Assembly: GCF_937425535.1 (NCBI RefSeq)
Contig: NZ_OW485601.1
Span: 239,001 to 303,000, forward strand
Direction of reading: 5' to 3'
DNA from: Rhodovastum atsumiense
GTDB lineage: Bacteria > Pseudomonadota > Alphaproteobacteria > Acetobacterales > Acetobacteraceae
DNA: 64,000 nt
The notes beneath the pieces are model-generated. The model searched no databases, had not been told where the DNA came from, and was given only the letters and a program-made list of their open reading frames with translations. Numbering within the stretch: position 1 is the first letter of the stretch; the number at the start of each line of letters is the position of its first letter. Below are positions 5,589 through 31,352 of the stretch, one piece after another. The translations under genes were made by a program, and so were the position numbers.

Positions 5589-6464
5589 TCAGGCCGGCAC
5601 GCGCGCGCGTTCGGCGGCGCGCTCGATTTCGACGAGCTGATCGGCCCAGCCGGACGACCATTCGCGCAGTTCGCGCGGATTGAGCGCGGTCGGCACCTTC
5701 GATTCGGTATGCGCGGCGATGCGGCGGGCAAGTTCGCGGTAGACATCGGCCTGCGGCGAATCCGGCGCGGCCTCGATGGTGGTCTTGCCCTTGAGCTCCG
5801 CCTGGGTGACGGTCAGCGAACGCGGGATGTACTGCACGATCTGCGTCTGCGTGCGCGCGGCGAAGTCGTCGATGATTTCGCGATGGAAATCGGTGTTCAT
5901 CGAGTTGGCGATGATGCCGCCGAGCAGGGCGCCACCGGAATTGGAGTATTTCTCGATGCCGCGGAACAGGTTGTTGGCGGCGTAGATCGCCATGAAGTCG
6001 GCCGAGGACACGGTGAAGACGTGTTCGGCGATGCCTTCGCGCACCGGCACGGCGAAGCCGCCGCACACCACGTCGCCGAGCACGTCGTAGATCACGAAGT
6101 CGAGATCAAGCTCCTCGAAGATCTGCTGCTGCTTGAGCAGTTCGACCGCGGTGATGATGCCGCGCCCGGCGCAGCCGACGCCGGGGGCCGGACCGCCGGC
6201 CTCGACGCAGTAGATACCCTTGAAGCCGAGGAAGATCGCCTCGTGCGCATCCACGCGGCGGCGTTCGGCCAGCAGGTCGAGCACCGAGGGGATGTATTCG
6301 CCGCCGCGCAGGGTGTTGGTCGAATCCGCCTTCGGGTCGCAGCCGAACTGCATCACCTTGTAGCCGGCTTCGACGAGGGCGGCGCTGATGTTCGAGGTGG
6401 TGGTGGATTTGCCGATCCCGCCTTTGCCGTAGATCGCGATCTGCTTCAGCTGCTTGCCGGACAT
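5589..6464 (-). CDS. marH: Nitrogenase-reductase-like iron protein, MarH-type (copy 1)
   Basis: ATP-dependent electron donor to MarDK, 291 residues. It has the P-loop GKGGIGKS at 13-20, the [4Fe-4S] ligands C98 (GCAGRG) and C134 (DVVCGGF), and R101, the arginine that DraT ADP-ribosylates in NifH. It starts at ATG 6464 behind a strong AAGGAGG and leads the operon marH1-marD1-marK1-methyltransferase, with 16 bp to marD1. It differs from MarH2 (30477-31352) at only 13 positions by my count. Whether it serves one or both DK pairs cannot be told from sequence. NifH-family membership is certain; the Mar assignment follows from the neighbours. Confidence 0.88.
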   Translation of the reverse strand: MSGKQLKQIAIYGKGGIGKSTTTSNISAALVEAGYKVMQFGCDPKADSTNTLRGGEYIPSVLDLLAERRRVDAHEAIFLGFKGIYCVEAGGPAPGVGCAGRGIITAVELLKQQQIFEELDLDFVIYDVLGDVVCGGFAVPVREGIAEHVFTVSSADFMAIYAANNLFRGIEKYSNSGGALLGGIIANSMNTDFHREIIDDFAARTQTQIVQYIPRSLTVTQAELKGKTTIEAAPDSPQADVYRELARRIAAHTESKVPTALNPRELREWSSGWADQLVEIERAAERARVPA

Positions 6465-8096: not shown

Positions 8097-8210
8097 GATT
8101 CTTCTGCGTGGAATAGTTCGTCCCCCTGTCTGAACCCATTCCCGATCGCAGCAGCGGAGCGCCCCGCATCGTCTCTCTTGAGTGCGGTCAAGCTGGCAAA
8201 GGACGCCCCG

Positions 8211-9506
8211 ATGGCCCTGACGACGAGCAATGTCGATACGCTGGTGTTGCATGGCGGCCCGTTTCGCGCCGATCCCGCGACCGGCGCCACCGTGGTGCCG
8301 ATCTACCAGAGCACATCCTTTGACCTGCAAACCACGGAACGTGCGGACCGGCTGGTCAATTTCGAGGAAATCGGCTTCGTCTACACCCGCATCGGCAATC
8401 CGACGCAGGATGTCCTCGAACACCGGCTCGCCGCGATCGAAGGCGGTGCGGCCGCGCTGGCGTTGGCTTCGGGGCAGGCGGCCACCGCCCTGGCGGTGCT
8501 GACGCTGGTGCAGGCGGGCGACAACATCGTCACCGGCACCGATCTCTATGGCGGGAGCTGGAACTTCTTCGCCAATCGGCTGAAGCAGTTCGGCGTCGAG
8601 GCACGCTTCGTCGATCCCGTCGATCCCGATGCCTTCGCCCGCGCCACCGATGCGCGCACCCGGCTTTATTTCGGCGAAACCCTGCCGAACCCGAAGCTGA
8701 ACGTCTTTCCCATCGCCGAGGTCGCCCGGATCGGCCGCGACCGCGGCGTTCCGCTGATCATCGACAACACCACCGCGCCGCTGCTGGCCAAACCGATCGC
8801 GCACGGCGCCGCGATCGTGGTGCATTCTGCGACCAAATACATCGGCGGCCATGGCACCACCATCGGCGGCGCCATCATCGACAGCGGCCGCTTCCCCTGG
8901 GAGGAATTCGCCGATCGCCATCCTCTGCTGACCGGCCCTGATCCTTCCTACAACGGCCGCCGATGGGTGGACATCGCCCGTCCGTTCGGACCGCTCGCCT
9001 ACATCTTCGCCGTGCGCGCCGGCCTGCTGCGCGATTTCGGCCCTGCCATCGCGCCGCAAAGCGCCTTCCAGCTCATCCAGGGCCTGGAAACGCTGCCGCT
9101 GCGCATCCGTCGCCACAGCGAGAATGCCGCGCGCGTGGCTGAATTCCTCGCCAGCCACCCCAAGGTGCAGCATGTCATCTTCCCCGGGCTGCAGACCGGC
9201 GAGGCGCGGCGCCGCGCCGACACCTATCTCAATGGCGGCCATGGCGGACTGGTCGGGTTCGAACTGACCGGCGGGGCCGAGGCCGGCCGGCGCTTCATCG
9301 ACGCGTTGCGCCTGCTGTTCCATGTTGCCAATATCGGCGACGCCCACAGCCTGGCGATCCATCCGGCCTCCACCACCCACGCCCAGCTCTCCGCCGAGGA
9401 ACAATTGGCCGCCGGTGTGACGCCGGGCTATGTGCGCCTGTCCGTCGGTATCGAAAATCCCGAGGACATCATTGCCGACATCGCCCAGGCGCTCGACCAG
9501 GCCTGA
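8211..9506 (+). CDS. metY: O-acetylhomoserine sulfhydrylase (MetY), copy 1
   Basis: PLP enzyme of the Cys/Met-metabolism fold (431 residues). It joins sulfide or methanethiol to O-acetyl-homoserine, giving homocysteine or methionine. The PLP lysine lies in HSATKYIGGHG, the cofactor-binding YTRIGNPTQ loop is near residue 60, and the C-terminal GVTPGYVRLSVGIE block is intact. I chose ATG 8211 (site AAAGGAC) because it gives the same length and N-terminus (NVDTLVLHGG) as the paralogue at 25032-26327. It heads an operon with marD2 and marK2, so its natural thiol is plausibly the methanethiol those proteins release. Confidence 0.92.
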   Translation: MALTTSNVDTLVLHGGPFRADPATGATVVPIYQSTSFDLQTTERADRLVNFEEIGFVYTRIGNPTQDVLEHRLAAIEGGAAALALASGQAATALAVLTLVQAGDNIVTGTDLYGGSWNFFANRLKQFGVEARFVDPVDPDAFARATDARTRLYFGETLPNPKLNVFPIAEVARIGRDRGVPLIIDNTTAPLLAKPIAHGAAIVVHSATKYIGGHGTTIGGAIIDSGRFPWEEFADRHPLLTGPDPSYNGRRWVDIARPFGPLAYIFAVRAGLLRDFGPAIAPQSAFQLIQGLETLPLRIRRHSENAARVAEFLASHPKVQHVIFPGLQTGEARRRADTYLNGGHGGLVGFELTGGAEAGRRFIDALRLLFHVANIGDAHSLAIHPASTTHAQLSAEEQLAAGVTPGYVRLSVGIENPEDIIADIAQALDQA

Positions 9507-9544: not shown

Positions 9545-11050
9545 ATGCCGCTCAACCTCAGGACGCCACAGGCCGAAACCCGCGAGCAGCGGCTCGGCAC
9601 GATCACCCAGTGGGAGGGCAGCGCGGCCCAGTTGGCGCGTGATTCCGCCTTCACCTATGGCTGCAGCAAAGGCCAGCCGAATGGCGGGCGGCGCCTGTGC
9701 GAACAGACCACGCCCTTCGCGCAGGCATCGATGTGCGCCGAGCACATCGCCGTCACCAACGCCACCATCATCCAGAACTCGGTGGTGATCCAGCATGCCC
9801 CGATCGGCTGCGCGGCCAGCCAGTCCTTCACCTGCCGCTACTACCGCGACCTCGCCGCCCGCCGGGGCTGGGAGCTTGAAGATCCCAAGGCCATGTGCAC
9901 CAACCTGACCGAGCAGGACATGGTGTTCGGCGGTGTCGGCAAGCTGGAGCAGACCATCCGCGACGCCTGGGCGCGCCATCACCCCAAGGTGATCTTCGTC
10001 GCCACCTCCTGCGCCACCGGCATCATCGGCGACGACGTCGACAGCGTCGCACGCAGCCTGGAGGCCGAGCTCGGCGTCATCATCGTCACCCTGCATTGCG
10101 AGGGCTTCCGCTCCCGGCACTGGAGCAGCGGCTGGGACGTGATCGAGCACGGCATCCTGCGCCGGCTGGTCACCCGTGACGCGACGCGGCAGGACGACCT
10201 GATCAACGTCATCCATCTCGGCGGCCCCGACGTGTTCAGCCCGCTGCTTGGCCAGCTCGGCCTGCGCGTCAACCTGGTGATGGGCGGCAGCACGCTGGAG
10301 CGGCTGGCGGAGATGTCCTCGGCCTCCGCCACGGTCACCATGTGCTTCGTGCTGTCCTATCTCGCGACCGGGCTCGAACAGGAATACGGCGTCCCCGAGG
10401 TGAAGGCCCCGCTGCCGTACGGGCTCGAGGCCACCGATAACTGGCTGCGGGAGATCGCGCGGGTCACCGGCCGCGAGGATCGCGTGGAAGCGGTGATCGC
10501 CCGCGAGCGCGCGCGCATCACCCCGGAGCTGGAGCGCCTGCGCCGGCGGCTGGCCGGGCGCAAGGGCTTCGTCGCCGCCGGCGCGGCCTTCGCGCACGGG
10601 CTGCTCGCCGACCTGCGCGAACTGGGGGTCGAGGTCGACAGCGCCTATTCCTTCCATCACGATCCCGCCGCCGACAGCGGCGATCCGCGCCAGGACAGCC
10701 TGGGCCATCTGGTCGAGACCTGGGGCGACATCCCCAACTTCACGGTCAGCCCCGACCAGCATTTCCAGGCCCATGCCGCGCTGGTGCGCGCGAGGCCCGA
10801 TTTCGTGATCTGCCGGCACAGCGGCACCATGGCGGCGCTGGCGGCCCGCATGGGCATCCCGGTGCTGCCGATCTTCTATTCCAATGACGGGCTCGGCTAT
10901 GATGGGCTGCTGACCATCGGCCGCGCCATCCTGCGCGTGTTGCCGCGCAAGCGCTTCTGCACCGATGTCGCCGCGCATTCGCGCTTCCCCTATCAGCGCT
11001 GGTGGTTGGAACAGACCGACCCCTACGCCCCCATCGCCGCGCCAGCCTGA
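9545..11050 (+). CDS. marD: Nitrogenase-like alpha subunit, MarD-type (copy 2)
   Basis: Catalytic D subunit, 501 residues, of the second nitrogenase-like pair. P-cluster cysteines are C64 (SMCAEH), C89 (APIGC) and C156 (ATSCATGIIGDD). The cofactor cysteine is C267 (TMCFVLSYL), and no histidine is seen at the NifD H442 position (IFYSNDGLGYDG). N- and C-termini match copy 1 closely (NLRT..ETREQRLGTI; FPYQRWWLEQTDPY), but large internal stretches differ, pointing to an old duplication or separate acquisition. It sits 38 bp behind metY1 and 13 bp before marK2. No H gene is in this operon, so electrons must come from marH1 or marH2. Confidence 0.85.
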   Translation: MPLNLRTPQAETREQRLGTITQWEGSAAQLARDSAFTYGCSKGQPNGGRRLCEQTTPFAQASMCAEHIAVTNATIIQNSVVIQHAPIGCAASQSFTCRYYRDLAARRGWELEDPKAMCTNLTEQDMVFGGVGKLEQTIRDAWARHHPKVIFVATSCATGIIGDDVDSVARSLEAELGVIIVTLHCEGFRSRHWSSGWDVIEHGILRRLVTRDATRQDDLINVIHLGGPDVFSPLLGQLGLRVNLVMGGSTLERLAEMSSASATVTMCFVLSYLATGLEQEYGVPEVKAPLPYGLEATDNWLREIARVTGREDRVEAVIARERARITPELERLRRRLAGRKGFVAAGAAFAHGLLADLRELGVEVDSAYSFHHDPAADSGDPRQDSLGHLVETWGDIPNFTVSPDQHFQAHAALVRARPDFVICRHSGTMAALAARMGIPVLPIFYSNDGLGYDGLLTIGRAILRVLPRKRFCTDVAAHSRFPYQRWWLEQTDPYAPIAAPA

Positions 11051-11063
11051 CCGGATCATCGCC

Positions 11064-12440
11064 ATGTCGCCGTTCGAACCCAGCGCCGCCCCCGCCCCGG
11101 ATCTCTGTCCCGCCTCCGGCACCATCGAGCAGGTCCGCTACGCCTGCAGCCTGGGCGCGCTGGCCAGTGTCATCGCCATTCCCGGTGCGATTCCGATCAC
11201 CCATTGCGGCCCGGGCTGCGCCACCAAGCAGTTCCACGCCCTGTCCGGCCTGCACGCCTACCAGGGCGGCGAGTTCCACGTGCCCAGCACCAACATGGGC
11301 AACCAGGAGGTCATCTTCGGCGGCACCGACCGGCTCGACGAACTGATCGCGGCCACGCTGCGGGTCATGGAGGCCGATCTGTTCGTGGTGCAGACCGGCT
11401 GCATCCCCGGCCTGATCGGCGATGACGTCGGCAACGTGGTCGGCAAGTACCAGCGCCGCGGCGTGCCGATCGTGTTCGCCGAGACCAGCGGCTATCGCGG
11501 CAACAACTTCACCGGCCACGAGATCGTGCTCCGCGCCATCATCGACCAGTTCCTCGGCGCCGATGACGGCCCGCGCGAAGCGGGGCTGGTGAACGTGTGG
11601 TCGCTGCTGCCCTACCAGAATCCGTTCTGGCGCGGCGACCTGACCGAGATCCGTCGTATCCTTGAAGGCATCGGCCTGCGCGTGAACATCCTGTTCGGCC
11701 CGGCCAGCGAGGGGATCGCCGAATGGCGCGCCATTCCACGCGCGCAGTTCAACCTCGTGCTCTCCCCCTGGCTCGGGCTGGAAACGGCGCGGCACCTGGA
11801 AAACAAGTACGGCCAGCCCTTCCTGCACGTCCCGGCCATTCCGATCGGCGCGAAACTGACCGGCGCCTTCCTGCGCCGCGTCGCCACGTTCGCCGGCCTG
11901 CCGCCCGAACCGGTCGAGGCCTTCATCGCCCGCGAGGAAAAGGAATACTACCACTACCTCCGGGATTTTTCGGCCTTCTATGCCGGTTGCACCAGCCAGT
12001 ACCAGTTGCCCTCGCAACTCGTCGTCATCAGTGAAAGCGCCTACAACCTCGCGGTGACAAAGTTCATGGTCGATCAGCTCGGCCTGCAGCCGGGCTGCCA
12101 GATCATCACCGAGAATCCGCCCGAGCCGGTCCGTGACCTGATCCGCGCGGAGTTCCGCGCCATCGCCGAGGATGAGCAGGCCGAAATCGCCTTCATCGAG
12201 GATGGCTGCCTCGCGCACCGGCTGGTGCACGGCACCGACTTCACCGGCCAATACCCGATCGTGTTCGGCTCCACCTGGGAAGCCGAGCTGGCGCAGCGGC
12301 TGCATGCCCCGCTGGTCGAGATCGGCTACCCCACCACGGACGAGGTCGTGTTGTCGCGCAGCTATGTCGGCTACCGCGGTGCCCTGGCGCTGATCGAACG
12401 CACCTACACCACGGTGGTACGGGCCAACACGATGGCCTGA
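11064..12440 (+). CDS. marK: Nitrogenase-like beta subunit, MarK-type (copy 2)
   Basis: K subunit partner of MarD2, 458 residues. P-cluster cysteines are C28 (RYACSLG), C52 in HCGPGC (with C48) and C113 (TGCIPGLIGDD). It shares with copy 1 the blocks NVWSLLPYQNPFWRGDL and LVLSPWLGLETARHLE, and the C-terminal SYVGYRGALALIERTYTTVV. I start at ATG 11064, not further upstream, because this reproduces the copy-1 length exactly and avoids overlap with marD2. The next gene, nifX-like, follows after 52 bp. Confidence 0.85.
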   Translation: MSPFEPSAAPAPDLCPASGTIEQVRYACSLGALASVIAIPGAIPITHCGPGCATKQFHALSGLHAYQGGEFHVPSTNMGNQEVIFGGTDRLDELIAATLRVMEADLFVVQTGCIPGLIGDDVGNVVGKYQRRGVPIVFAETSGYRGNNFTGHEIVLRAIIDQFLGADDGPREAGLVNVWSLLPYQNPFWRGDLTEIRRILEGIGLRVNILFGPASEGIAEWRAIPRAQFNLVLSPWLGLETARHLENKYGQPFLHVPAIPIGAKLTGAFLRRVATFAGLPPEPVEAFIAREEKEYYHYLRDFSAFYAGCTSQYQLPSQLVVISESAYNLAVTKFMVDQLGLQPGCQIITENPPEPVRDLIRAEFRAIAEDEQAEIAFIEDGCLAHRLVHGTDFTGQYPIVFGSTWEAELAQRLHAPLVEIGYPTTDEVVLSRSYVGYRGALALIERTYTTVVRANTMA

Positions 12441-17531: not shown

Positions 17532-18254
17532 ATGCCCTATGACGATCCCACCTGCGCCTATTGCCCCTCGACGGTCCGGGCCTGTCGCAGCGGGGAAGCG
17601 CAGACCCGTGGTCCTGGATTTTGCCCCAGCAAGGTTGATCCCGAGGTGCAGGCGAAAGCCCGGGCGCTGTACGACGATCCGGAAACGCACAAGCTTGCCT
17701 ACACCTCCGCCCTGGTGGAATCGGAGGGCTATTGCCGCTGGACGCGGGTGCAGGAAGTCGTCGAGTTTTCCAAGCGCATGGGCTGGAAGAAGATCGGCAT
17801 CGCCAACTGCATTGGCCTGATCGACCTGGCCAATACCCTGACCGCCATCCTGGAAAGCCATGGCTTCGAGGTGATTTCGGTCGCCTGCAAGAACGACAAT
17901 ATCCCCAAGGAAGAAATTGGCCTGAGTGACGCCCAGAAGATCAGGCCCGGCAATTTCGAGCCGGCCTGCAACCCGGTGGCGCAGGCCGAATTGTTGAATG
18001 CCCATGGCAGTGAGTTCAATGTGGTCATGGGCCTTTGCATTGGCCATGACAGCCTGTTCTTCAAATACGCCAAGGCCCCGACAACCGTGCTGGTCACCAA
18101 GGATCGTGTGCTCGGCCATAATCCGGTCGCGGCCCTGCAACTGGCCGACACGTACTATTCGCAGCTGTATGGCCCGCTGAAGCCGGCTCAGTCCACGAAG
18201 ACACCCCCGGCCAAGCGCCGGCGCAGCGCCGCGCCGACCGACAGCACCCCCTGA
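17532..18254 (+). CDS. DUF1847 cysteine-rich protein
   Basis: A 240-residue soluble protein recognised as DUF1847. It begins CAYCPSTVRACRSG followed by PGFCPSK, so C8, C11, C18 and C31 could bind a metal or iron-sulfur cluster. Further conserved-looking cysteines are in GYCRW, IANCIGL, SVACKND, EPACNP and MGLCIGHD. Family function is unknown to me; members occur mainly in anaerobes and near redox genes. It stands alone behind an FNR/FixK-type box and the shared TTTCTCGTTAA motif, so it is probably part of the oxygen-regulated sulfur programme. The last 30 residues are basic and proline-rich. Confidence 0.8.
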   Translation: MPYDDPTCAYCPSTVRACRSGEAQTRGPGFCPSKVDPEVQAKARALYDDPETHKLAYTSALVESEGYCRWTRVQEVVEFSKRMGWKKIGIANCIGLIDLANTLTAILESHGFEVISVACKNDNIPKEEIGLSDAQKIRPGNFEPACNPVAQAELLNAHGSEFNVVMGLCIGHDSLFFKYAKAPTTVLVTKDRVLGHNPVAALQLADTYYSQLYGPLKPAQSTKTPPAKRRRSAAPTDSTP

Positions 18255-18552: not shown

Positions 18553-19482
18553 ATGAGTTTTGTCGCCCCGGCTTCGCCGGCCACAACCGCGCCTGCCCCT
18601 GGCAGCACCAGTGCCGCGGTGTCGATCCGGCATCTCGGCAAGAGCTATCCCGCCCGCGCGGGGGATGCGCCATTCCTGGCCCTGCGCGACATCGACCTTG
18701 AGATTCATCGTGGCGAGTTCATCGTTCTGCTCGGGCCGAGCGGCTGCGGCAAGTCGACCTTGCTGCACGTCATCGGCGGGCTGGTGCCGGCCGAGGGCGA
18801 GGTGACAGTGATGGGCCGCGCCGTCGCCGGCCCCGGCTTCGACCGCGGCATCGTGTTTCAGGACTACGCCCTGTTTCCGTGGCGGACGGTGCTCGACAAC
18901 GTCGCCTTCGGACTGGAAATCAAGCGCGTGCCGCGCCGGCAGCGCGAGGAGATCGCGCAGGCGCGGCTGGCGAGCGTCGGCCTCGCCGGCTTCGAGGCGC
19001 ATTACCCGGCGCAGCTCTCGGGTGGGATGAAGCAGCGCGTGGCGATCGCGCGGGCGCTGGCCTACGACCCCGATGTGCTGTTGATGGACGAGCCCTTCGC
19101 CGCCCTCGACGCCCAGACCCGCGAGATCCTGCAAGGCGAGTTGCTGCGGATCTGGCGCAGCACCGGCAAGACCGTCATCTTCGTGACCCACAGCATCGAC
19201 GAGGCGATCTTCCTGGCCACGCGCGTGGTGGTGTTCACCGCCCAGCCCGGTACGATCAAGCGTATCGTGGACGTGGATCTGCCCGCAGCGCGCGACAGCG
19301 GCGACCTGCGCAGTTCCCCCGCCTTTGCCACGCTGCGGGGTCACCTTGCAGCCCTGCTGGCGGAAGAGGTCGGCAAGGCAGCCGAACGTGCCTATGGCCG
19401 CGCGGCTGCCGCGGCGGCACCTTCGCGCGGCAGCGCCCGACTGTGGTCGCGGCTGCGCAGCCTGATGGCGGGGGCAGGCTGA
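18553..19482 (+). CDS. ABC transporter ATPase (SsuB/TauB-like)
   Basis: ATP-binding subunit, 309 residues. Walker A GPSGCGKST, Q-loop IVFQDYALFPW, signature QLSGGMKQRVAIARAL, Walker B LLMDEPFAALDA and switch VTHSIDEA are all intact. The C-terminus carries about 55 extra alanine-rich residues beyond the core. I start at ATG 18553; an in-frame start 87 bases upstream would add an unrelated leader. It leads a compact operon, with the permease one base behind its stop. As with the other ABC systems here, sulfonate or related organosulfur uptake is inferred from family and neighbours. Confidence 0.9.
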   Translation: MSFVAPASPATTAPAPGSTSAAVSIRHLGKSYPARAGDAPFLALRDIDLEIHRGEFIVLLGPSGCGKSTLLHVIGGLVPAEGEVTVMGRAVAGPGFDRGIVFQDYALFPWRTVLDNVAFGLEIKRVPRRQREEIAQARLASVGLAGFEAHYPAQLSGGMKQRVAIARALAYDPDVLLMDEPFAALDAQTREILQGELLRIWRSTGKTVIFVTHSIDEAIFLATRVVVFTAQPGTIKRIVDVDLPAARDSGDLRSSPAFATLRGHLAALLAEEVGKAAERAYGRAAAAAAPSRGSARLWSRLRSLMAGAG

Positions 19483-19483: not shown

Positions 19484-20239
19484 ATGCAGGGACGGATTCT
19501 GCAGGTCGGGGTCATCCTCGGCATCCTGGCCTTGTGGGAGGGGCTGCCGCAAAGCGGCGTCATCAACCCCAACTTCCTCACCCCGCTGTCCGATGTCGTG
19601 GCCACCTTGTGGCAACTGGTGGTATCGGGCCAGTTGGCACAGCACGCGGCGATCAGCCTGCAGCGCATCGCCTATGGGCTCGGTGTCTCCATCCTGATCG
19701 GTGTGCCGCTCGGGCTGGGCATGGGCTGGTGGCGCACGCTCGAACAGGCTTTCGACGGACCGCTGCAGGCAGGCCGGCAGATCTCGGCCTTCGCACTGTT
19801 CCCCGTGTTCATCCTGTTCTTCGGCATCGGCGAGGTGTCGAAGGTGGTGATCGTGTTCTGGGCTTCGGTCTGGCCGATCATCCTCAACACCACGGCCGGG
19901 GTCAAAGGCGTGGACGCGGTGCTGGTGCGCGCGGCGCGCTCGATGAACGCGAATGGCTGGACGCTGTTGCGCAAGGTGGTGATCCCGGCCGCGGCACCGT
20001 CGATCTTCACCGGCATCCGCCTCGGCGGCGCCTACGCCTTCATGGTGCTGGTAGCCGCCGAGATGATCGGTGCCAATGCCGGGCTCGGCTTCCTGGTGCT
20101 GAATTCACAGGAAGTGTTCCGCATCCCGCAGATGTACGCCGCGATCGTGGCGCTGGTGATCTTCGGCCTGGCGCTCAACCGCCTGCTGCTCGGCATCGAG
20201 CGGAGCGCGACATCCTGGCGGCAGGAAGCCGGCGCATGA
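19484..20239 (+). CDS. ABC transporter permease (SsuC-like)
   Basis: A 251-residue inner-membrane protein with about six helices. The coupling loop is VRAARSMNANGWTLLRKVVIPAAAPSIFTGIR, the family EAA-type motif. It starts one base after the ATPase stop and ends 41 bp before the binding-protein start. Only one permease is present in this operon, so a homodimer is expected, unlike the operons at 13843 and 31419, which each have two. Confidence 0.9.
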   Translation: MQGRILQVGVILGILALWEGLPQSGVINPNFLTPLSDVVATLWQLVVSGQLAQHAAISLQRIAYGLGVSILIGVPLGLGMGWWRTLEQAFDGPLQAGRQISAFALFPVFILFFGIGEVSKVVIVFWASVWPIILNTTAGVKGVDAVLVRAARSMNANGWTLLRKVVIPAAAPSIFTGIRLGGAYAFMVLVAAEMIGANAGLGFLVLNSQEVFRIPQMYAAIVALVIFGLALNRLLLGIERSATSWRQEAGA

Positions 20240-20280
20240 GCGCGGCCGCAGGCCGCGTCCAAAAGGAGACTGAAGGCAAG

Positions 20281-21246
20281 ATGAAGCTCTGGAAGATCGC
20301 GGCGCCGCTCGCCCTGGTGGTGGCGCTGCTGGCCGCCCCGGCAGCACGGGCCGCGGGCCCGGCGAAGCCGGATGTGATCCGCTACGCCAACATTCCCTGG
20401 TTCGACCCGGTCTACGTCGCCGACGAGAAGGGCTGGTTCGCCGAGGAAGGGCTGAAGATCGAGTGGGTCGGCGAAATCTCCGCCTCCCAGTTGGTTCCCG
20501 CGGTCGCCGCCCGCAGCATCGACATCTCCAACCGGATGACGCCGCTGATCCTGACCGCGCGCGCCGGGGGTGCGAAGCTGCGGATCATCGCCGCCGGGGC
20601 GCAGACCACGCCCGAGCTGCCGCACATGAAATACCTGGTGTCGCCGCAGAGCCCGATCCGCAGCATCGAGGACCTGCGCGGCAAGAAGGTGGGCATCAAC
20701 AGCTTCGGCGCCTGCTCGGAATATGTCCTCAAGGAGTACCTGCGCCGCAATGGCCTGGACAAGACCATCAACTTCGTGGTCGTCCCGGACGCGAACCAGG
20801 AGCAGGCACTGGCCCAGGGGCTGATCGATGTCGGCGTGCTGCATTCGCCCTATTACGAGAAGGTGGTGAAGACCGGAGCGGCGCGCGAGATCTTCACCGA
20901 CTACGCGGTCGATGACGGCGTGCCCGGCATGCTGCCCTATTTCACGCACGAAGACATCATCCGCACCCGCCCCGACGTGCTGCGCCGCTTCGTCAAGGTG
21001 CTGGTGCGCGCCTCCGACTGGACCAACAAAAATCACGAGGAAGCAGGCCAGATCTTCGCCCGGCGCCGCGGCCTCGACCTGCGCTATGCGGGGAGCTGGA
21101 GCTACTACGAGCACGGGCTGGTGCCGAACGACAAGCCGGTGCAGTGGTGGATCGATTACCTCGTCGGCGAAGGGCAATTGCCGGCGGGCAAGGAAAAGGC
21201 CCGCAACGTCTACACCAATGAGTTCAACCCTTATTACAAATCCTAG
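20281..21246 (+). CDS. ABC substrate-binding protein (SsuA/TauA-like)
   Basis: A 321-residue periplasmic protein with a Sec-type signal (MKLWKIAAPLALVVALLAAP ending ARA). The NMT1/SsuA fold is shown by YANIPWFDPVYVADEKGWF and the hinge block LRGKKVGINSFGACSEY. ATG 20281 is chosen because the signal peptide begins there and AAGGAG and GAAGG lie upstream; an in-frame ATG at 20236 would bury the signal. Its last 29 bases overlap the start of the propeller gene, so the two may be translationally linked. Confidence 0.9.
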   Translation: MKLWKIAAPLALVVALLAAPAARAAGPAKPDVIRYANIPWFDPVYVADEKGWFAEEGLKIEWVGEISASQLVPAVAARSIDISNRMTPLILTARAGGAKLRIIAAGAQTTPELPHMKYLVSPQSPIRSIEDLRGKKVGINSFGACSEYVLKEYLRRNGLDKTINFVVVPDANQEQALAQGLIDVGVLHSPYYEKVVKTGAAREIFTDYAVDDGVPGMLPYFTHEDIIRTRPDVLRRFVKVLVRASDWTNKNHEEAGQIFARRRGLDLRYAGSWSYYEHGLVPNDKPVQWWIDYLVGEGQLPAGKEKARNVYTNEFNPYYKS

Positions 21247-22381
21247 CAGAAGCCACGGCCGCCGAGACCTGCTGGCCCTGGCGGCCGCGGAGTTGCTGGC
21301 CCTGGCCGGACCAGCCGCGCCCGCCCGCGGCGCGGGGCCCGGTTCGGCCGGCTTCGGCGAAGTGGCACGACTGGTCTTTGTGCCGCAGGCGAGGTCACAA
21401 CGGGTCGAGGTCCTCGATGCCGACAGCGACCAGCGCATCGGCGGGCTTTCGCTCGGGCTGACACCGCATCAGGTCGAGGTCTCGGCCGGCGTGGCCCGGC
21501 TGGTCGCCATCGACGGCAGCTCACCGGACCTGCTGCTGCTTGATCTGGTCACCACCACATCCCGGCGGATCCCGCTCTCCGTGGCGGCCCGCCGCCTCGT
21601 GCTCAGCCCCGACGGAATGACCGCGGCGGTGGCGGATTCCGAAGCCGGAAGCGTGGCCTTCGTCGACCTGCTGTTCGGGCGCGAGAGCGGCGTCGTGCGC
21701 GACCTGCCGCCGCTGCGCGACATCATCTTCGCCGGCCGCCAGCCCATGTTTGTCTACGCGCCCGCCGGCCGGCACGAACTCGGCCTGATCGATGCGGTCA
21801 CCACCCTTCCCGCCGGGCCGATCGCGACCCCTCAGCCGGTGACCGAGCTGCGCCGCGCCCCGAACGGCAGGCGCCTGTTCGCCCATGGCGAAGGCGGTGG
21901 GCCGGTCAGCGTGATCGACCTAGAGGCGGAGCGTGTCATCAACGACATCCCCGCCGGGGCCGGCAGCCTCGTTCTTCCCTCGGCCACGGGGGCAAGGCTG
22001 CTGCTGCTCGAACCGCAGGCGGCCCGCGTCTCGGTGCTGGACGCCGATGGCAGCGGGCGCGTGGCACTGGCGGGTGCGGGGGGGCTCGATGCGGCCTATC
22101 CCGCCTGGCTCGACAGCGTGGCCTTCGTGCCAAGCGCCACGGAACGATGCCTGCTCGTCTACGACCTGGATGAGCCCCGGCTTGCCGGCCGGATTGCCCT
22201 CGGCGGCCTGCCCCTGCGCGGCAGCGTAACGCCCGATGGGCAGAAGCTTTTTCTCCCGCTCGGCGGCACGCGGGAGGTGCTGGTGATCGATGCCAGACGC
22301 CGGGCCGTGCTGCGCCGGGTGCGGCTGGACGACGAGCCACAGGCAGCGCTTATTGCCGGAGGCTACGGAATTTGTCACTGA
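21218..22381 (+). CDS. Tat-exported YVTN-type beta-propeller protein
   Basis: A 387-residue protein with a twin-arginine leader (SHGRRDLLALAAAELLALAG) followed by repeated short beta blades: RVEVLDADSDQRIGG, LVLSPDGMTAAVADS, PVSVIDLEAERVIND and LVIDARRRAVLRRVR. These suggest a six- or seven-bladed propeller of the YVTN/lactonase-like superfamily. Such proteins often assist periplasmic redox or binding systems; no catalytic residues can be named. The start at ATG 21218 lies inside the end of the binding-protein gene, a close coupling that suggests joint function in the periplasm. Confidence 0.75.
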   Translation: MSSTLITNPSRSHGRRDLLALAAAELLALAGPAAPARGAGPGSAGFGEVARLVFVPQARSQRVEVLDADSDQRIGGLSLGLTPHQVEVSAGVARLVAIDGSSPDLLLLDLVTTTSRRIPLSVAARRLVLSPDGMTAAVADSEAGSVAFVDLLFGRESGVVRDLPPLRDIIFAGRQPMFVYAPAGRHELGLIDAVTTLPAGPIATPQPVTELRRAPNGRRLFAHGEGGGPVSVIDLEAERVINDIPAGAGSLVLPSATGARLLLLEPQAARVSVLDADGSGRVALAGAGGLDAAYPAWLDSVAFVPSATERCLLVYDLDEPRLAGRIALGGLPLRGSVTPDGQKLFLPLGGTREVLVIDARRRAVLRRVRLDDEPQAALIAGGYGICH

Positions 22382-22460
22382 CCCCCCGCAGGCCCGGCAT
22401 CGCCTGGTCCTGGCTGCGGGGCGGGCAGGATACGTCGCAGTGTTGGAACAGGACGAAACC

Positions 22461-23348
22461 ATGGATGCCGTCGTGACGCGCCCGCGGGCGCAGCGGGTTG
22501 CAAAGGGCAAGCCGGCCGCCCGCCGGATCACCCGTGACGAGGTGATCGCGGAGGCACGCCGACTCGGCGCGAGCATCGTCGGCTTCGCGCCGGTCGCGCG
22601 CTGGGCCGAGCATGGCGAGATCCCGCCCGCGTACCACCCGGAAGCGTTGTGGCCGCAGGCCCGCACCGTCATCGCCTTCGGCGTACCGATGCTGCTGCCG
22701 GTGATCGAAACGACACCGTCGATCAACTATCAGGAGCATTACGATACCTCCAACCGGCTGCTCGACGAGATCAGCTTCCGCCTCGCCGTCTGGCTGAACG
22801 AGGCCGGGCACCCGGCGATGTCGCTGCCGCGCGACGGCTATGGCAGCCTGGAGATCCTGCTGGCCAATCCCTTCGCCTCGTTCAGCCACACCTACGCAGC
22901 GAAATATGCCGGACTCGGCACGGTCGGCATGTCGCGCAACCTGCTGGTGCCGCAATACGGCCCGCGGGTGCGCCTGAACTCGGTGTTCACGGCGACGGAA
23001 TTCGACGGCGACCCGGAACTTGCGGAAGAGCTGTGCACCAAATGCCGCATCTGCGAGCGGACCTGCCCGACCGGCGCCATCCGGGCCCGCGACGACGGCA
23101 TCCTCGGTGATCTCGACAAGGACGCCTGCACCCGTCACCATATCGCGCTTCGCGACGAGAAGCGCTGGCCCTGCGGCATTTGCGTCAAGGTCTGCTCGAT
23201 CGGCGAGGACCGGCATCTCTACGGCAACCGCAGCATGAAGCGATACCTGGACGAGCGGCCGGCGCTGGAGAAGAACCCGGACGACCTGCGCTACCGCCCG
23301 CTGGTGCATGTCCGCCGCCATGGCTCCGGCGGCAGCCGCATCGCCTGA
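22461..23348 (+). CDS. QueG-like double [4Fe-4S] protein
   Basis: A 295-residue cytosolic iron-sulfur protein. Two clusters are indicated by CTKCRICERTCP at about residues 195-206 and CGICVKVC near 241-248, the bipartite pattern of epoxyqueuosine reductase and reductive-dehalogenase-like proteins. Upstream, FASFSHTYAAKYAGLGTVG is the family's typical middle block. QueG proper is longer and has a conserved catalytic region that I cannot confirm, and a tRNA-modification role makes little sense here. It sits directly before a methyltransferase and a DMSP-lyase-like gene, so an electron-transfer or corrinoid-linked role in C1/sulfur chemistry is possible. GTG 22440 is an alternative start. Confidence 0.72.
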   Translation: MDAVVTRPRAQRVAKGKPAARRITRDEVIAEARRLGASIVGFAPVARWAEHGEIPPAYHPEALWPQARTVIAFGVPMLLPVIETTPSINYQEHYDTSNRLLDEISFRLAVWLNEAGHPAMSLPRDGYGSLEILLANPFASFSHTYAAKYAGLGTVGMSRNLLVPQYGPRVRLNSVFTATEFDGDPELAEELCTKCRICERTCPTGAIRARDDGILGDLDKDACTRHHIALRDEKRWPCGICVKVCSIGEDRHLYGNRSMKRYLDERPALEKNPDDLRYRPLVHVRRHGSGGSRIA

Positions 23349-23388: not shown

Positions 23389-24363
23389 ATGCAGGTTGCC
23401 GCCGCCCCCTTCCTCGCCATCACCGCGCCGGAGCGGATCCGCTCCACGCTGGACCTGCTGGTGACCGACCATTGCTACGAGCCGCGACCGGATGATCCGC
23501 TCGCCGATTGGGTGGCCACCGTGGCAGTTCCGGCCTTCAAGGCGTTGCGTGCCCTGGCCGGACCGGCCGCCGCCTGTGCCTCGATCGGCACCGGCTCGGG
23601 CCTGGACATGCTGGCCGCCATCGAGATCCTGGGCGCGCGGCGGGTGGGCATCACCGACCTGCACGAGGATGTCGTCGCCGCAGCCGCGGCCAACATCGCC
23701 GGCAATCTCGCCCCCGGCCATGCGGTCACCATCGAGGCCGGGACCGGGGACCTGCTCGCGCCGCTGCGACCGCAGGGCGGCTACGACATGATCTACGAGA
23801 ACCTGCCGAACACCCCGTTGCGCGGCAGCTCGACTCTCGAGACGGACCGGACCAGTTCCAAGCATCTGGCGCCGCGCCCGGAGCAACTGCCCCCGCTGGT
23901 GGAAACGCAGTTGCTGGCGCTGCACTACCTGGCGCTTCGCCAGGTAGTGCCGGTGCTCGCACCCGGCGGATCGGTGCTTTCCACCATCGGCGCGCGGGTG
24001 CCGCTCGGCGTGCTGCTGGAAATGGCCGCCCTCGCCGGCCATGCCGCCGAGGTGCTGATCTATACCTGGAAGCACCAGGCCGATCCCGAGGAGATGATCG
24101 GCGGCTACGCCGCCTGGCAGCAGGACGGGCTCGGCCCGTTCCATTTCTATCCCGCTGCCGTGCTGCGCGAAGCCTTCGCCGACGATCCCCCGGCAGCGGC
24201 GGGTGCACGGGCCCTGGATCTGGAAGCGCAGTTGGCACCGCATCGTCTGGATGCTCCGGCCGCGCTTGCGGCGCTGCGGGCCGGGGAGACGCTTGCCCAT
24301 ACCGTTGCCGTGCTGCGGTCCCGCCCGCTACCGGGCGCCACCGCCGCGGGTGACGCGCCATGA
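23389..24363 (+). CDS. SAM-dependent methyltransferase-like protein
   Basis: About 324 residues with a class I SAM-binding motif (CASIGTGSGLDMLAAIEILG) and the acidic second-strand motif VGITDLHEDVV. The catalytic-region motif DMIYENLPNTPL resembles the NPPY/NLPY signature of methyltransferases acting on nitrogen or other planar groups. ATG 23389 avoids overlap with the preceding gene; ATG 23308 would add 27 residues of low-complexity alanine-rich sequence. Its stop overlaps the next start (ATGA), so it is tightly coupled to the DMSP-lyase-like cupin. The substrate is unknown, and a methylated sulfur compound is a reasonable guess. Confidence 0.72.
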   Translation: MQVAAAPFLAITAPERIRSTLDLLVTDHCYEPRPDDPLADWVATVAVPAFKALRALAGPAAACASIGTGSGLDMLAAIEILGARRVGITDLHEDVVAAAAANIAGNLAPGHAVTIEAGTGDLLAPLRPQGGYDMIYENLPNTPLRGSSTLETDRTSSKHLAPRPEQLPPLVETQLLALHYLALRQVVPVLAPGGSVLSTIGARVPLGVLLEMAALAGHAAEVLIYTWKHQADPEEMIGGYAAWQQDGLGPFHFYPAAVLREAFADDPPAAAGARALDLEAQLAPHRLDAPAALAALRAGETLAHTVAVLRSRPLPGATAAGDAP

Positions 24364-24977
24364 GCATTCCCGAACAGATCGCCACACTGGTCACGCTGCT
24401 ACGGCAGCGACTGGCGCTGCGACGAAACCTGCCGGATGCCATCGGGCGGGAAGTGGCACGCGCGGTCACCGCCCTGGAGGCGGTCAACGGCACGGCCAGC
24501 GGGCTGGCCCTGTCCTTCCATCCGGTGCTGCGCCATTTGCCGGCCTGCCTGCAGGCGACGGACAAGGGGCTTGCCGAGGCCCTCGCCCCGCTGGCCGATC
24601 ACCTTCCCTGGCATTACGGCTACCCGCCGCGCCGCGACGCCCCGGACCTTGGGCGCGACATCGCCTTCGCCGAACTGGTCGGGCCCGCGGCGCCGCTGCA
24701 CAGCGACGAGGTCTGCCTTGGATTGACGCTGATCGGGCCGCACAGCTTCTACCCGCTGCATGCCCATCCGGCGGCCGAGCTCTACTGGGTGCTCTCGGGG
24801 GCGGCCGCCTGGACAGCGGGGCAGGTCACGCAGGTGCATCCGCCCGGATCATACATCCTGCATCCCCCGAACCTGCCACACGCCATGCGCACCGGCGCCG
24901 TGCCGCTGCTCGCGGCCTATACCTGGACCGGCGAGGTGGCGATTTCCTCCGTCTATGTCGAGGCGCCGCCGGCCTGA
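24360..24977 (+). CDS. DMSP lyase-family cupin (DddL/DddQ/DddW-like)
   Basis: A 205-residue single-domain cupin. The metal site expected for cupin DMSP lyases is present: H134 and H136 (LHAHPAAELYW), E140, Y142, and H174 in LPHAMRT. The flanking blocks VLSGAAAWTAG, PPGSYILHPPNLPHAM and PLLAAYTWTGEV match the family pattern by eye. Characterised members split dimethylsulfoniopropionate into dimethyl sulfide and acrylate, but some relatives do not. The gene overlaps the methyltransferase stop by four bases. Dimethyl sulfide is a known substrate of R. rubrum Mar, so the gene may feed the reductase encoded nearby. Family assignment is fairly secure; activity is inference. Confidence 0.68.
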   Translation: MSIPEQIATLVTLLRQRLALRRNLPDAIGREVARAVTALEAVNGTASGLALSFHPVLRHLPACLQATDKGLAEALAPLADHLPWHYGYPPRRDAPDLGRDIAFAELVGPAAPLHSDEVCLGLTLIGPHSFYPLHAHPAAELYWVLSGAAAWTAGQVTQVHPPGSYILHPPNLPHAMRTGAVPLLAAYTWTGEVAISSVYVEAPPA

Positions 24978-25031: not shown

Positions 25032-26327
25032 TCAGGCGGCGTCGAGGGCCTGGGCCAGATCGGCGATGATGTCATCCGGGTGCTCGATGCCGACCGCGAG
25101 GCGCACATAGCCCGGCGTCACGCCGGTCCGCAGCTGGTCGTCGCCGGTGAGCTGGGAATGCGTGGTGGTAGCCGGATGGATCGCCAGCGAGCGCGCATCG
25201 CCGATATTGGCGACGTGATAGAACAACTGCAGCGCCTCGATGAAGCGGCGGCCGGCCTCGGCCCCGCCGCTCAGCTCGAAGCCCACCAGCGCCCCGTAGC
25301 CGCCGCGCAGATAGGCATCGGCCCGGCGCCTTGCCTCGCCGGTCTGCAGGCCGGGGAAGATGACGCGCTCCACCTTCGGATGCTTCGCCAGGAAGTCGGC
25401 GACGACGATGGCGTTGGCATTGTGCTGTCGCAGTCGCAGCGGCAGCGTCTCCAGCCCCTGGATGAACTGGAAGGCACTGAACGGGGCGATCGCCGCACCG
25501 ATGTCGCGCAGCAGCTTGGCGCGGATGCGCAGCACATAGGCGATCGGGCCAAGCGCCTTCGCCGCCTCGGTCCAGACCAGCCCGTGATAGCTTTCATCGG
25601 GCTGGGTCAGCAACGGGAAGCGATCGGCGTGCTCCTCCCACGGGAAAGTGCCGCCGTCGATGATGACGCCGCCGATCGTGGTGCCATGGCCGCCGATATA
25701 CTTCGTGGTCGAATAGAGCACCGCCGCCGCGCCGTGCTCGATCGGGCGGGCGATCAACGGTGCCGCCGTGTTGTCCACCACCAGCGGCACCCCGAGCGAG
25801 CGGCCGATATCGGCGACCTCGCGGATCGGGAACACGTTCAGCTTCGGATTGGGCAGTGTCTCCGCATAATAAAGCTTGGTGCGGGCATCGGTGGCGCGGC
25901 GGAAATTCTCCGGATCGGAGGGATCGACGAAGCGCGCCTCGATGCCGAGATGGCGCAGCGTCGAGGCGAACAGCGCCCAGGTGCCGCCGTAGAGATCGGT
26001 TGAGGTGACGAAGTTGTCGCCCGCTTCGGCGACGTTCAGCACCGCATAGGCCGAGGCCGCCTGCCCGGAGGCCAGCGCCAGTGCCGCCGCGCCGCCTTCC
26101 AGCGCCGCGATCCGCTGCTCGAAGGCATCCTGCGTCGGGTTGGAAACGCGGGTGTAGATGTGGCCGAGCTCGGAAAGGGCGAACAGCTCCTTGGCGTGGC
26201 TGGTGTCGCGGAACTGATAGGACGTGGTCTGGTAGATCGGTACGGCGACCGCGCCGGTCTCCGGGTCAGAGCGGTAGGTGCCGCCGTGCAGCACGAGAGT
26301 TTCAGCGTTCTTGATCGACAGAGGCAT
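25032..26327 (-). CDS. metY: O-acetylhomoserine sulfhydrylase (MetY), copy 2
   Basis: 431 residues, the same length as copy 1 at 8211-9506. PLP lysine is in YSTTKYIGGHGTTIGG, the cofactor loop is YTRVSNPTQDAFE, and the C-terminus is GVTPGYVRLAVGIEHPDDIIAD. It should make methionine or homocysteine from O-acetylhomoserine and methanethiol or sulfide. It is last in the minus-strand run GMC oxidoreductase, peptide, NifB-like, oxygenase, metY2. Having one MetY in each of two operons associated with cofactor or reductase genes suggests dedicated handling of methanethiol under different conditions. Confidence 0.92.
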   Translation of the reverse strand: MPLSIKNAETLVLHGGTYRSDPETGAVAVPIYQTTSYQFRDTSHAKELFALSELGHIYTRVSNPTQDAFEQRIAALEGGAAALALASGQAASAYAVLNVAEAGDNFVTSTDLYGGTWALFASTLRHLGIEARFVDPSDPENFRRATDARTKLYYAETLPNPKLNVFPIREVADIGRSLGVPLVVDNTAAPLIARPIEHGAAAVLYSTTKYIGGHGTTIGGVIIDGGTFPWEEHADRFPLLTQPDESYHGLVWTEAAKALGPIAYVLRIRAKLLRDIGAAIAPFSAFQFIQGLETLPLRLRQHNANAIVVADFLAKHPKVERVIFPGLQTGEARRRADAYLRGGYGALVGFELSGGAEAGRRFIEALQLFYHVANIGDARSLAIHPATTTHSQLTGDDQLRTGVTPGYVRLAVGIEHPDDIIADLAQALDAA

Positions 26328-27438: not shown

Positions 27439-28395
27439 TCATCCGTGCGAGAAAGTTGGCTCGGCAACGCGATTGTCGCCGTAGAGCTCGGCAGTGAAGT
27501 CACTGACCCCCGGCACGCCGCAGGCATCGGCCCGGCAGCGCTGGCAATGCGTGAAGACGCGCAGATGGCGCCGCGCCGCCTGGCGGGCCCGATGCACCTC
27601 CCCGGCGGTCGGCCTGGGCAGATGCGCGAAACGATGCTGCGGGATCAGCGGAATGACGTTGATCAGCTCCGCCCCGGCGGCGGCGACGCTGCGTGCCACC
27701 TCCTCCACATGCGCATCGTTCACCCCGGGCACGAGCACGGTATTGACCTTCACCGTGATGCCGCGTGCCTTCATGGCGGCGATGCCGTCAAGCTGGTTGC
27801 GGATCAGCCGCTCCGCCGCCGCCACGCCTTCCAGGCGCCGCTGGTGCCAGGCGATCACCGGGCTGATCACCGCCTGGATCGCCGGGTCCACCGCATTCAC
27901 CGTCACCGTCACCGTGCGCACGCCGACCTCGCCGATCGCATCGGCCCGCTCGGGCAGCAGCAGCCCGTTGGTGGACAGGCAGAGCAGCAGTTCGGGCCAG
28001 GCGGCATGCACCAGGGTGAAGGTCCGCAGCGCGTGCCGCGTGAACAGCGGATCGCCCGGCCCGGCAATGCCGACGACCGACAGGGTCGGGCAGAGCAGCA
28101 GGGCGCGCCGGACCACGTCGACCGCCTGCTCCGGCGTCAGCAACCGGGTGGCAACACCGGGCCGGTGCTCGACGTCGTTGAAATCGCGCCGACAGAACCG
28201 GCAGGTGATGTTGCAGCCCGGGCTCACGGGAAGATGCAGCCGGGCGGCGCGGCTGTGCCCCTCGGCGGTCGCGCTGAAGCAGGGATGGCGCCCTTCAAGC
28301 GCGGGAAAGGCCGGCGCGGTGCTGGCCTGGCGCATGCTCTGGATGGCGCAGGCCGGTGCCTGGGGGTCATCCGCTCCGGGCGAGCGCACCGTCAC
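27439..28395 (-). CDS. NifB-like radical SAM protein, short form (MarB candidate)
   Basis: A 318-residue radical SAM enzyme. NifB fuses two [4Fe-4S] units into the 8Fe core used by nitrogenase cofactors. Here the radical SAM cysteines are C61, C65 and C68 (GCNITCRFC). NifB hallmarks are HPCFS (H38, C39), VVGIAGPGDPL, LCLSTNGL and the C-terminal HCQRCRADACG. Two departures stand out: NifB's K[YF]DC cysteine just after the CxxxCxxC motif is missing (DFNDVEHRPG), and there is no C-terminal NifX domain. Start is GTG 28395, overlapping the peptide stop (GTGA). It probably builds the cofactor for MarDK and may correspond to MarB of R. rubrum, which I cannot verify. Confidence 0.82.
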   Translation of the reverse strand: MTVRSPGADDPQAPACAIQSMRQASTAPAFPALEGRHPCFSATAEGHSRAARLHLPVSPGCNITCRFCRRDFNDVEHRPGVATRLLTPEQAVDVVRRALLLCPTLSVVGIAGPGDPLFTRHALRTFTLVHAAWPELLLCLSTNGLLLPERADAIGEVGVRTVTVTVNAVDPAIQAVISPVIAWHQRRLEGVAAAERLIRNQLDGIAAMKARGITVKVNTVLVPGVNDAHVEEVARSVAAAGAELINVIPLIPQHRFAHLPRPTAGEVHRARQAARRHLRVFTHCQRCRADACGVPGVSDFTAELYGDNRVAEPTFSHG

Positions 28396-30476: not shown

Positions 30477-31352
30477 ATGTCTGAAAAGAAACTGAAGCAG
30501 ATCGCGATCTACGGCAAAGGCGGGATCGGCAAATCCACCACCACCTCGAACATCAGCGCCGCCCTCGTCGAAGCCGGCTACAAGGTGATGCAGTTCGGCT
30601 GTGACCCGAAGGCGGATTCGACCAACACCCTGCGCGGCGGCGAATACATCCCCTCGGTGCTCGACCTGCTGGCCGAACGCCGCCGCGTGGATGCGCACGA
30701 GGCGATCTTCCAGGGCTTCGGCGGCATCTACTGCGTCGAGGCCGGCGGCCCGGCCCCCGGCGTCGGCTGCGCCGGGCGCGGTATCATCACCGCGGTCGAA
30801 CTGCTCAAGCAGCAGCAGATCTTCGAGGAGCTTGATCTCGACTTCGTGATCTACGACGTGCTCGGCGACGTGGTGTGCGGCGGCTTCGCCGTGCCGGTGC
30901 GCGAAGGCATCGCCGAACACGTCTTCACCGTGTCCTCGGCCGACTTCATGGCGATCTACGCCGCCAACAACCTGTTCCGCGGCATCGAGAAATACTCCAA
31001 TTCCGGCGGCGCCCTGCTCGGCGGCATCATCGCCAACTCGATGAACACCGACTTCCAGCGCGCCATCATCGACGATTTCGCCGAACGCACGCAGACGCAG
31101 ATCGTGCAGTACGTGCCGCGCTCGATCACGGTCACCCAGGCGGAACTCAAGGGCAAGACCACCATCGAGGCCGCGCCGGATTCGCCGCAGGCCGATGTCT
31201 ACCGCGAACTTGCCCGCCGCATCGCCGCGCATACCGAATCGAAGGTGCCGACGGCGCTCAATCCGCGCGAACTGCGCGAATGGTCGGCCGGCTGGGCGGA
31301 CCAACTGGTGGAAATCGAACGGGCCGCCGAGCATGCCCGCGCCGCGGCCTGA
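30477..31352 (+). CDS. marH: Nitrogenase-reductase-like iron protein, MarH-type (copy 2)
   Basis: 291 residues, with the same P-loop GKGGIGKS (13-20), cluster ligands C98 and C134, and R101 as copy 1. I count 13 differences from MarH1, most near residues 211-233 and at the extreme C-terminus. The two genes are also very close at DNA level, which suggests recent duplication or gene conversion. Unlike copy 1, it is not followed by D and K genes but by an ABC transporter operon, 66 bp downstream. It may supply electrons to MarD2K2, which lacks its own H. Confidence 0.88.
   Translation: MSEKKLKQIAIYGKGGIGKSTTTSNISAALVEAGYKVMQFGCDPKADSTNTLRGGEYIPSVLDLLAERRRVDAHEAIFQGFGGIYCVEAGGPAPGVGCAGRGIITAVELLKQQQIFEELDLDFVIYDVLGDVVCGGFAVPVREGIAEHVFTVSSADFMAIYAANNLFRGIEKYSNSGGALLGGIIANSMNTDFQRAIIDDFAERTQTQIVQYVPRSITVTQAELKGKTTIEAAPDSPQADVYRELARRIAAHTESKVPTALNPRELREWSAGWADQLVEIERAAEHARAAA

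Follow-up and report, generated by a model that had tools for sequence, protein, structure and literature searches.

We examined a cupin gene at 24360-24977 of a 64,000-nucleotide stretch of the Rhodovastum atsumiense genome (contig NZ_OW485601.1, positions 239,001 to 303,000 of the forward strand; hereafter the window), together with the methyltransferase gene that overlaps the start of the cupin gene by 4 bases and that an earlier, sequence-only reading of this DNA had left unmentioned. That reading saw in the cupin a possible lyase of dimethylsulfoniopropionate (DMSP) within a methylthio-alkane reductase (Mar) locus, and proposed a chain from DMSP through dimethyl sulfide and Mar to methionine. 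Our main finding is that the cupin has a recurrent partner: a homologue of the methyltransferase (48-65% identity) lies directly upstream of the cupin gene, on the same strand, in 12 of 18 loci retrieved with the cupin. We tentatively propose, giving it a little under an even chance, that the two proteins methylate and then cleave: the methyltransferase would make a sulfonium compound from a methylthio-carboxylate, the cupin would eliminate dimethyl sulfide or another methyl thioether from it, and Mar, where present, would convert this to methanethiol for MetY. Such a pair feeding Mar and MetY is a broader reading than the chain first proposed, and fits more of the evidence.

The 18 loci came from a scan of genome contigs with an alignment of four cupins, and the link to the methyltransferase was not selected for, because the scan patterns derived from the cupin only; three of the loci (L080, L086 and L087) themselves belong to the query alignment, and they lack the methyltransferase. 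The 12 loci that hold the pair (L070, L071, L072, L073, L074, L076, L077, L079, L081, L083, L084 and L085) out of 18 are no census, because a relative is found by the scan only if it has one of two short peptide patterns. With the window included, all 13 pairs are spaced by -4 to +17 bases, the gene starts in the fetched loci being those of our own gene-calling script. No methyltransferase stands before the cupin in scan loci L078, L080, L086 and L087; none was matched in 29 control loci (L002-L030) around other matches to PF16867 (DMSP_lyase) in the host's bacterial family (19 over the PF16867 cut-off and 10 under it, with flanks of 1.5 kb, some of them cut by contig ends); and none was found in loci around further PF16867 members (L047-L051 and L066-L069).

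In the cupin tree, a moderately supported clade of 15 rows (88/83, or 84/81 with DddL added) takes in all 13 pair cupins; its other two rows are L082 and L075. In L082, from Rhodopseudomonas sp. AAP120, 35 aa of the methyltransferase C-terminus (51% identity, L082:9861-9965) survive just before the cupin, and both this remnant and the intact cupin adjoin marHDK; a distant methyltransferase homologue (94 bits) is found elsewhere in that genome.

The start of the window methyltransferase was set by alignment with its relatives, its open reading frame (ORF) reaching up to 23308. The nearest solved fold to its predicted model (predicted local distance difference test score, pLDDT, 90.6) is that of the methionine S-methyltransferase MmtN (7vvv/7vvw/7vvx). 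Foldseek placed nine MmtN chains on top (E 2.6e-12 to 9.5e-11, then 5.5e-8), and VIA-align placed three MmtN entries first, at Z 21.0, 20.7 and 20.4 over 233-243 residues (root-mean-square deviation 3.0-3.6), the next family being at 16.9. 'LPN' and 'LPQ' correspond between the two proteins, and both have a GAR motif in the C-terminal half; the window methyltransferase differs from MmtN in its identity of only 23%, and its substrate may well be another. In sequence comparisons, Pfam found PrmA weakly in 9 of 14 methyltransferase members and little else; a 13-member profile searched against the PDB gave MmtN as its top but weak match (E 0.0019, over 170 positions that extend into the C-terminal half), and a 14-member profile gave MmtN second (E 0.0026) after an L11 methylase (E 0.002). 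The product of MmtN is given as S-methylmethionine in PMC9135737. To judge from its sequence, the window methyltransferase may have a substrate other than methionine; methionine was set aside as a candidate because it would lead to a futile loop and because the residues that MmtN has for it are not evident, although the loop in question is poorly modelled.

Among the further neighbours of the methyltransferase model are N6AMT1 (Z 16.9) and HemK/PrmC (Z 15.7), folds which it resembles as well, and PF16867 has branches without an assigned function in the host's bacterial family. Both observations would suit a cupin that acts as lyase or isomerase on some unrelated substrate, with a methyltransferase acting on carboxylate, oxygen or nitrogen and a sulfur context that is incidental; but different lineages repeatedly show the MetQNI-type, Ssu-type, MetY and Mar contexts, and we judge this account improbable.

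A single-sequence search (E 0.001) matched the methyltransferase in 14 of 385 alphaproteobacterial genomes, all at less than 25 bits except the own genome, which has two copies; the profile at E 1e-10 found the own genome only (twice) among 398 Pseudomonadota genomes, and a profile search of plasmids gave no match. Often no more than five first-look candidates were scored per genome in these genome searches, so misses are possible; by such searches the methyltransferase is rare. The second copy in the own genome (a 53% match, L046:10320-12310, minus strand) overlaps an EamA-family transporter gene.

For the cupin itself, the sequence-only reading was borne out. Its ORF of 205 aa begins with ATG, and PF16867 is its best Pfam family (103.7 bits, E 1.1e-29, cut-off 27), no non-lyase cupin family in Pfam matching better; it is the sole PF16867 match in the whole genome (E 0.001), and an NCBIfam scan gave no model matching it. 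The proposed ligand set, H134/H136/E140/Y142/H174, is in place and, together with an additional residue, Y131, is invariant in all 18 rows of an alignment that includes the window's own sequence. Y131 is the equivalent of Tyr120 of DddQ, and all six catalytic/metal residues of that enzyme, for which PMC4437653 lists Tyr120, His123, His125, Glu129, Tyr131 and His163 as essential, have equivalents in the window cupin. Nearest to the predicted cupin model (pLDDT 94.9), in structure comparison, are four DddQ entries (4la2, 4la3, 5jsp and 5cu1) and RnDddQII (4b29), at Z 22.7-23.6 over 184-192 residues, which is nearly the whole chain; DddY (Z 16.3) and DddK (Z ~14) stand lower in the ranking. In all the structural evidence the cupin resembles a DMSP lyase.

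The HxHx3ExY spacing and PF16867 are likewise common to DddQ and the window cupin. The two differ, however, in that the window cupin has 21-25% identity to DddQ, a separate clade and a methyltransferase partner, and in that D93, present in all 18 rows, and R91, conserved in at least 90%, are absent from the DddQ chains compared. In the cupin tree the three DddQ chains form a clade of their own (100/97; 100/98 in a second tree), the window cupin is not grouped with characterised DddQ in either tree, and the deeper branches are weakly supported. The first tree was built without three rows that do not match HxHx3(E/D)xY (L018, L019 and the DddL of L089); in the second, DddL and L019 were added and L018 was still excluded. 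Outside both trees were L009 (no ORF), L020-L030, the Acidisoma cupin (L048/L086), DddW and DddK.

A plain lyase, which cleaves external DMSP while the methyltransferase serves something else, would agree with the Pfam score, the DddQ fold and the complete set of catalytic residues, and Mar, MetY and, in the genome, an AcuI-family gene over its cut-off are present to receive the products; dimethylsulfoxonium propionate (DMSOP) could be a substrate too, cupin DMSP lyases being described as cleaving it (PMC10686828). We nonetheless consider it unlikely. The cupin lies outside the DddQ clade; among the scanned genes neighbouring it, none was recognised as a DMSP importer or an acrylate gene; no BCCT transporter was found in the genome; and the conserved methyltransferase partner would go unexplained. 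Of the chain first proposed, the lyase fold, the residues, Mar and MetY all stand, and the genome has the AcuI-family gene as well, but external DMSP as the starting substrate is not supported.

The annotated DddL locus on plasmid pSC52_2 (L089) makes the difference in context plain: a TetR gene and an oxidoreductase precede dddL, and neither stands beside the window cupin. A gene order acuR-acuI-dddL is described in PMC3017554. DddL resembles the window cupin in being a DMSP-lyase-family cupin that groups loosely with the window's branch (87/79, on a long branch and unsure), and differs in its HxHx4ExY, with E-x-Y one residue further on. The AcuI/YhdH-family acrylyl-CoA reductase gene (434.9 bits, cut-off 297.25) is at C1:4856550, far from the cupin, and this family was over cut-off in 2 of 14 control genomes; it leaves our weighing of the accounts where it was, because AcuI fits a plain DMSP lyase and one form of the methylate-then-cleave explanation alike.

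Another sulfur pathway with a cupin, and with an O-acetylhomoserine sulfhydrylase as its last enzyme, is the methylthioadenosine (MTA)-isoprenoid shunt, as described in PMC5893883, and the window cupin might be its 1-methylthioxylulose-5-phosphate methylsulfurylase. This is disfavoured and, to us, highly implausible: the window cupin is not adjacent to a RuBisCO-like gene, and a separate RuBisCO-family run with its own 153-aa Cupin_2 protein exists at L064 (C1 5.38 Mb). Moreover Rru_A2000 (3jzv) of Rhodospirillum rubrum, which we take to be a methylsulfurylase, came at rank 50 in the comparison with the cupin model, with Z 12.0 versus 22.7-23.6 for DddQ. The run at L064:5676-9115 (minus strand) holds the RuBisCO-family protein, the small cupin and a protein of 607 aa that includes a MetY part, and is perhaps an MTA-isoprenoid shunt with a fused MetY.

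In the methylate-then-cleave scheme, a thioether carboxylate R-S-CH3, brought in by Ssu- or MetNIQ-type systems, would be methylated on its sulfur by the MmtN-like methyltransferase to give a sulfonium. The DddQ-like cupin, with its metal on H136/E140/H174 and with Y142 or Y131 as base, would then take the carboxylate-activated proton and release dimethyl sulfide (or another methyl thioether) by elimination, as its fold and residues suggest. From sequence and models, then, we infer a methyltransferase that acts on thioether sulfur and passes its product to the cupin, with dimethyl sulfide or a methyl thioether leaving. For elimination of the DddQ type, an acidic C-H must have a good leaving group in the beta position; methylation of a thioether supplies such a leaving group and so suits this elimination, whereas methylation of a thiol would not. 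Candidate substrates are 3-methylthiopropionate, S-methylcysteine and 4-methylthio-2-oxobutyrate. If it is the first of these, DMSP would be the intermediate and would be split into dimethyl sulfide and acrylate, the latter a possible substrate for the product of the AcuI-family gene. MetY-family enzymes make methionine from methanethiol and O-acetylhomoserine, and the MetY step here would do so with methanethiol that Mar would form, along with methane, by reducing the dimethyl sulfide. Mar of R. rubrum is described as carrying out this conversion of dimethyl sulfide to methanethiol and methane (PMC12552129). Genomes without Mar would need some other route for the methyl thioether, for example flavin monooxygenases.

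The contexts of the pair in other loci include importers: a MetQ-type binding protein adjoins it in L083 and L070 (L084 and L085 being alike in layout by gene size), and in L076 binding protein, permease, ATPase, MetY, methyltransferase and cupin form a single run. Sister-branch cupins without the methyltransferase lie near flavin monooxygenases. In Acidisoma silvae an NtaA/DmoA-family gene (442.1 bits, cut-off 279.7; L086:10724-12124) follows about 0.3 kb after the cupin, and SsuD-like genes near the cupins of L078 and L080 are under cut-off. DmoA oxidises dimethyl sulfide, according to PMC13352529, and its family is broad.

The proposal of a MetY near the cupin was confirmed in the window (Table 1), and six of the 12 loci (L071, L072, L073, L074, L076 and L079) have a MetY-family gene no more than one gene away from the pair. 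By TIGR01326, L073 and L076 are over the cut-off and the cupin-touching gene of L074 and of L079 is under it (L071 and L072 were not scanned). Four of the six are Azoarcus metagenome-assembled genomes (MAGs) without detected Mar, and a fifth related MAG has a MetY-like gene before the methyltransferase. This distribution, and the description in PMC13352529 of other S-methyltransferases with sulfide and methanethiol as substrates, would agree with a route in which the methyltransferase methylates a thiol R-SH, the cupin eliminates methanethiol, MetY fixes it, and Mar is uninvolved. A chemical argument speaks against such a route, since a methylated thiol is a worse leaving group and gives no help to elimination; the nearest fold of the methyltransferase is moreover a thioether methylase, and in other loci the pair stands with Mar. 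We therefore rate it as having only a small chance of being correct.

The description of the region as a Mar locus was upheld, with one correction: MarD1 and MarK1 match R. rubrum MarDK, but the cupin is in no operon with a mar gene, the nearest such gene being MarH-like and 5.5 kb off and the nearest MarD-MarK pair ending 11.9 kb upstream. PDB entry 9FMG is the R. rubrum Mar complex, and His429 of its MarD is a ligand of the [Fe8S9C] cluster (as reported in PMC12552129). The equivalent residue, counted along the alignments, is a histidine in an RH motif in both window D proteins. Matches to the next nitrogenase are far below those to Mar (127.6 bits for MarD1, 71.8 for MarK1 and 137.1 for MarD2). 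As in R. rubrum, MarH1, MarD1 and MarK1 lie in one run; unlike R. rubrum, the window has a second, divergent MarD-MarK pair accompanied by MetY1 and a NifX-like gene. MarD2 is 52% identical to MarD1, and the substrate of MarD2/MarK2 may differ from that of Mar. Around this divergent pair (9545-12843 region) MetY1 stands before and the NifX-like gene after, and L082 holds a fragment with 79% identity to MarD2 across 185 residues. The NifB-like protein of the window covers positions 11-277 of the 441 in the NifB model, and L081 and L082 also have NifX and NifB-like neighbours.

Of 17 genomes tested, six have MarD at more than 50% identity (the genomes of L070, L074, L077, L079, L081 and L082; L078 shares a genome with L080 and was given no separate count), and five of these are among the 12 that have the pair. 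Mar genes lie inside the fetched locus itself in L077, L079, L081 (H only) and L082. L074 is a locus of Rhodoblastus acidophilus DSM 137, and Rhodopseudomonas rhenobacensis and Magnetospirillum fulvum are further relatives with Mar. An exclusive link of the cupin to Mar is not supported, and a dedicated route from dimethyl sulfide to Mar is weakened by the pair genomes without detected Mar.

Several points weigh against the methylate-then-cleave explanation. MarD was not found at that identity in the other seven pair genomes (L071, L072, L073, L076, L083, L084 and L085), an absence which is weak evidence because six of the seven are MAGs by title. In four Mar-negative genomes the pair adjoins MetY, which needs methanethiol or sulfide and not dimethyl sulfide, and these genomes fit a direct release of methanethiol better. 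Adjacency of the pair is not universal in its clade: the genome of L075, the Zoogloeaceae MAG Im510, has both genes apart, with the methyltransferase (L092:576-2906, minus strand) and the cupin (L075:331-1002) on different contigs; the cupin has no methyltransferase within the 330 bases that precede it, and the methyltransferase, which there follows a MetY-like gene, has no cupin within the 575 bases that come next. Similarly, no cupin lies beside the second methyltransferase copy of the own genome in the 20 kb examined. The link in sequence between methyltransferase and MmtN is weak; in the weak profile alignment, Glu127 and Arg132 of MmtN are not matched by similar residues, the model loop there being of low confidence, and Glu250 falls outside that alignment. 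With methionine as substrate the scheme would become a futile loop. Finally, the scheme leaves the Fe-S and propeller genes of the cupin's own run unexplained.

This run, on the plus strand, starts with the ABC (ATP-binding cassette) ATPase and has the cupin as its last gene (Table 1). Among the matches to its Fe-S protein in 372 alphaproteobacterial genomes, none exceeds 33% identity. DUF1847 proteins occur near the pair in two places (window 17532-18254 and L079:8164-8829). Further along the window, at 43428-49188, are genes for a flavin adenine dinucleotide (FAD)-linked GlcD-like dehydrogenase, a methionine-aminotransferase-like protein and a methionine-gamma-lyase-like protein, and dehydrogenase and aminotransferase genes related to these are near the pair in L083, L084 and L085. 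Transposase-like ORFs occupy 57036-63472, with an ALIL frameshift pseudoknot at 57381-57497 which was the only match in an Rfam scan of the window; no tRNA was found there. In Im510, short repeats of 36-78 bases, 73-92% alike, are present on both the methyltransferase contig and the cupin contig.

Table 1. Genes of the window discussed in the text, with positions counted from its first nucleotide.
Feature	Position	Strand	Basis or remark
MarK1	2663..4039	-	708.9 bits to 9d9u_C
MarD1	4052..5572	-	759.4 bits to 9fmg_A; His429 equivalent kept
MarH1	5589..6464	-	In one run with MarD1 and MarK1
MetY1	8178..9506	+	73% to MetY2 over 262 residues
MarD2, divergent	9545..11050	+	599.8 bits to 9fmg_A; His429 equivalent kept
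MarK2, divergent	11064..12440	+	Paired with MarD2
ABC ATPase adjoining permease	18619..19482	+	Position and sequence
ABC permease adjoining SsuA-like protein	19484..20239	+	Position and sequence
SsuA-family substrate-binding protein	20236..21246	+	Score under family cut-off
Beta-propeller-like protein, cupin's run	21218..22381	+	None near pair in other loci
QueG / reductive-dehalogenase-like 4Fe-4S protein, cupin's run	22353..23348	+	None near pair in other loci
MmtN-like class I S-adenosylmethionine (SAM) methyltransferase, 324 aa	23389..24363	+	4-base overlap with cupin start
DMSP-lyase-family cupin, 205 aa, candidate sulfonium lyase	24360..24977	+	ATG start; Pfam, model, residues
MetY2, O-acetylhomoserine sulfhydrylase family	25032..26327	-	Convergent with cupin; TIGR01326 581.8 bits, cut-off 495.1
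NifB-like radical SAM protein without C-terminal NifX part	27439..28395	-	271.6 bits, under NifB cut-off
Second MarH-like Fe protein	30477..31352	+	Mar gene nearest to cupin, 5.5 kb away

No description of the methyltransferase-cupin pair was found in the open-access literature, searched mostly at title/abstract level, and no paper was found there with both 'methylthio-alkane reductase' and 'DMSP'. It is possible, though we hold it with some reserve, that the pair belongs to an undescribed thioether-desulfurising route, in which a sulfonium made with SAM from a methylthio-carboxylate would lose dimethyl sulfide through the cupin and, in Mar-bearing anaerobes, Mar would turn this into methanethiol and methane, the former for methionine. 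Cupin DMSP lyases have been studied mainly in marine bacteria that meet ready-made DMSP. If the substrate here is 3-methylthiopropionate, purple and related bacteria would have the synthase and the lyase of DMSP encoded in a single operon. More generally, the methylate-then-cleave explanation, if true, would give a role to part of the uncharacterised DMSP-lyase-like cupins, by way of a sulfonium that the cell makes itself and then cleaves; it would mean one more source of dimethyl sulfide among purple and related bacteria, linked to biological methane formation wherever Mar occurs.

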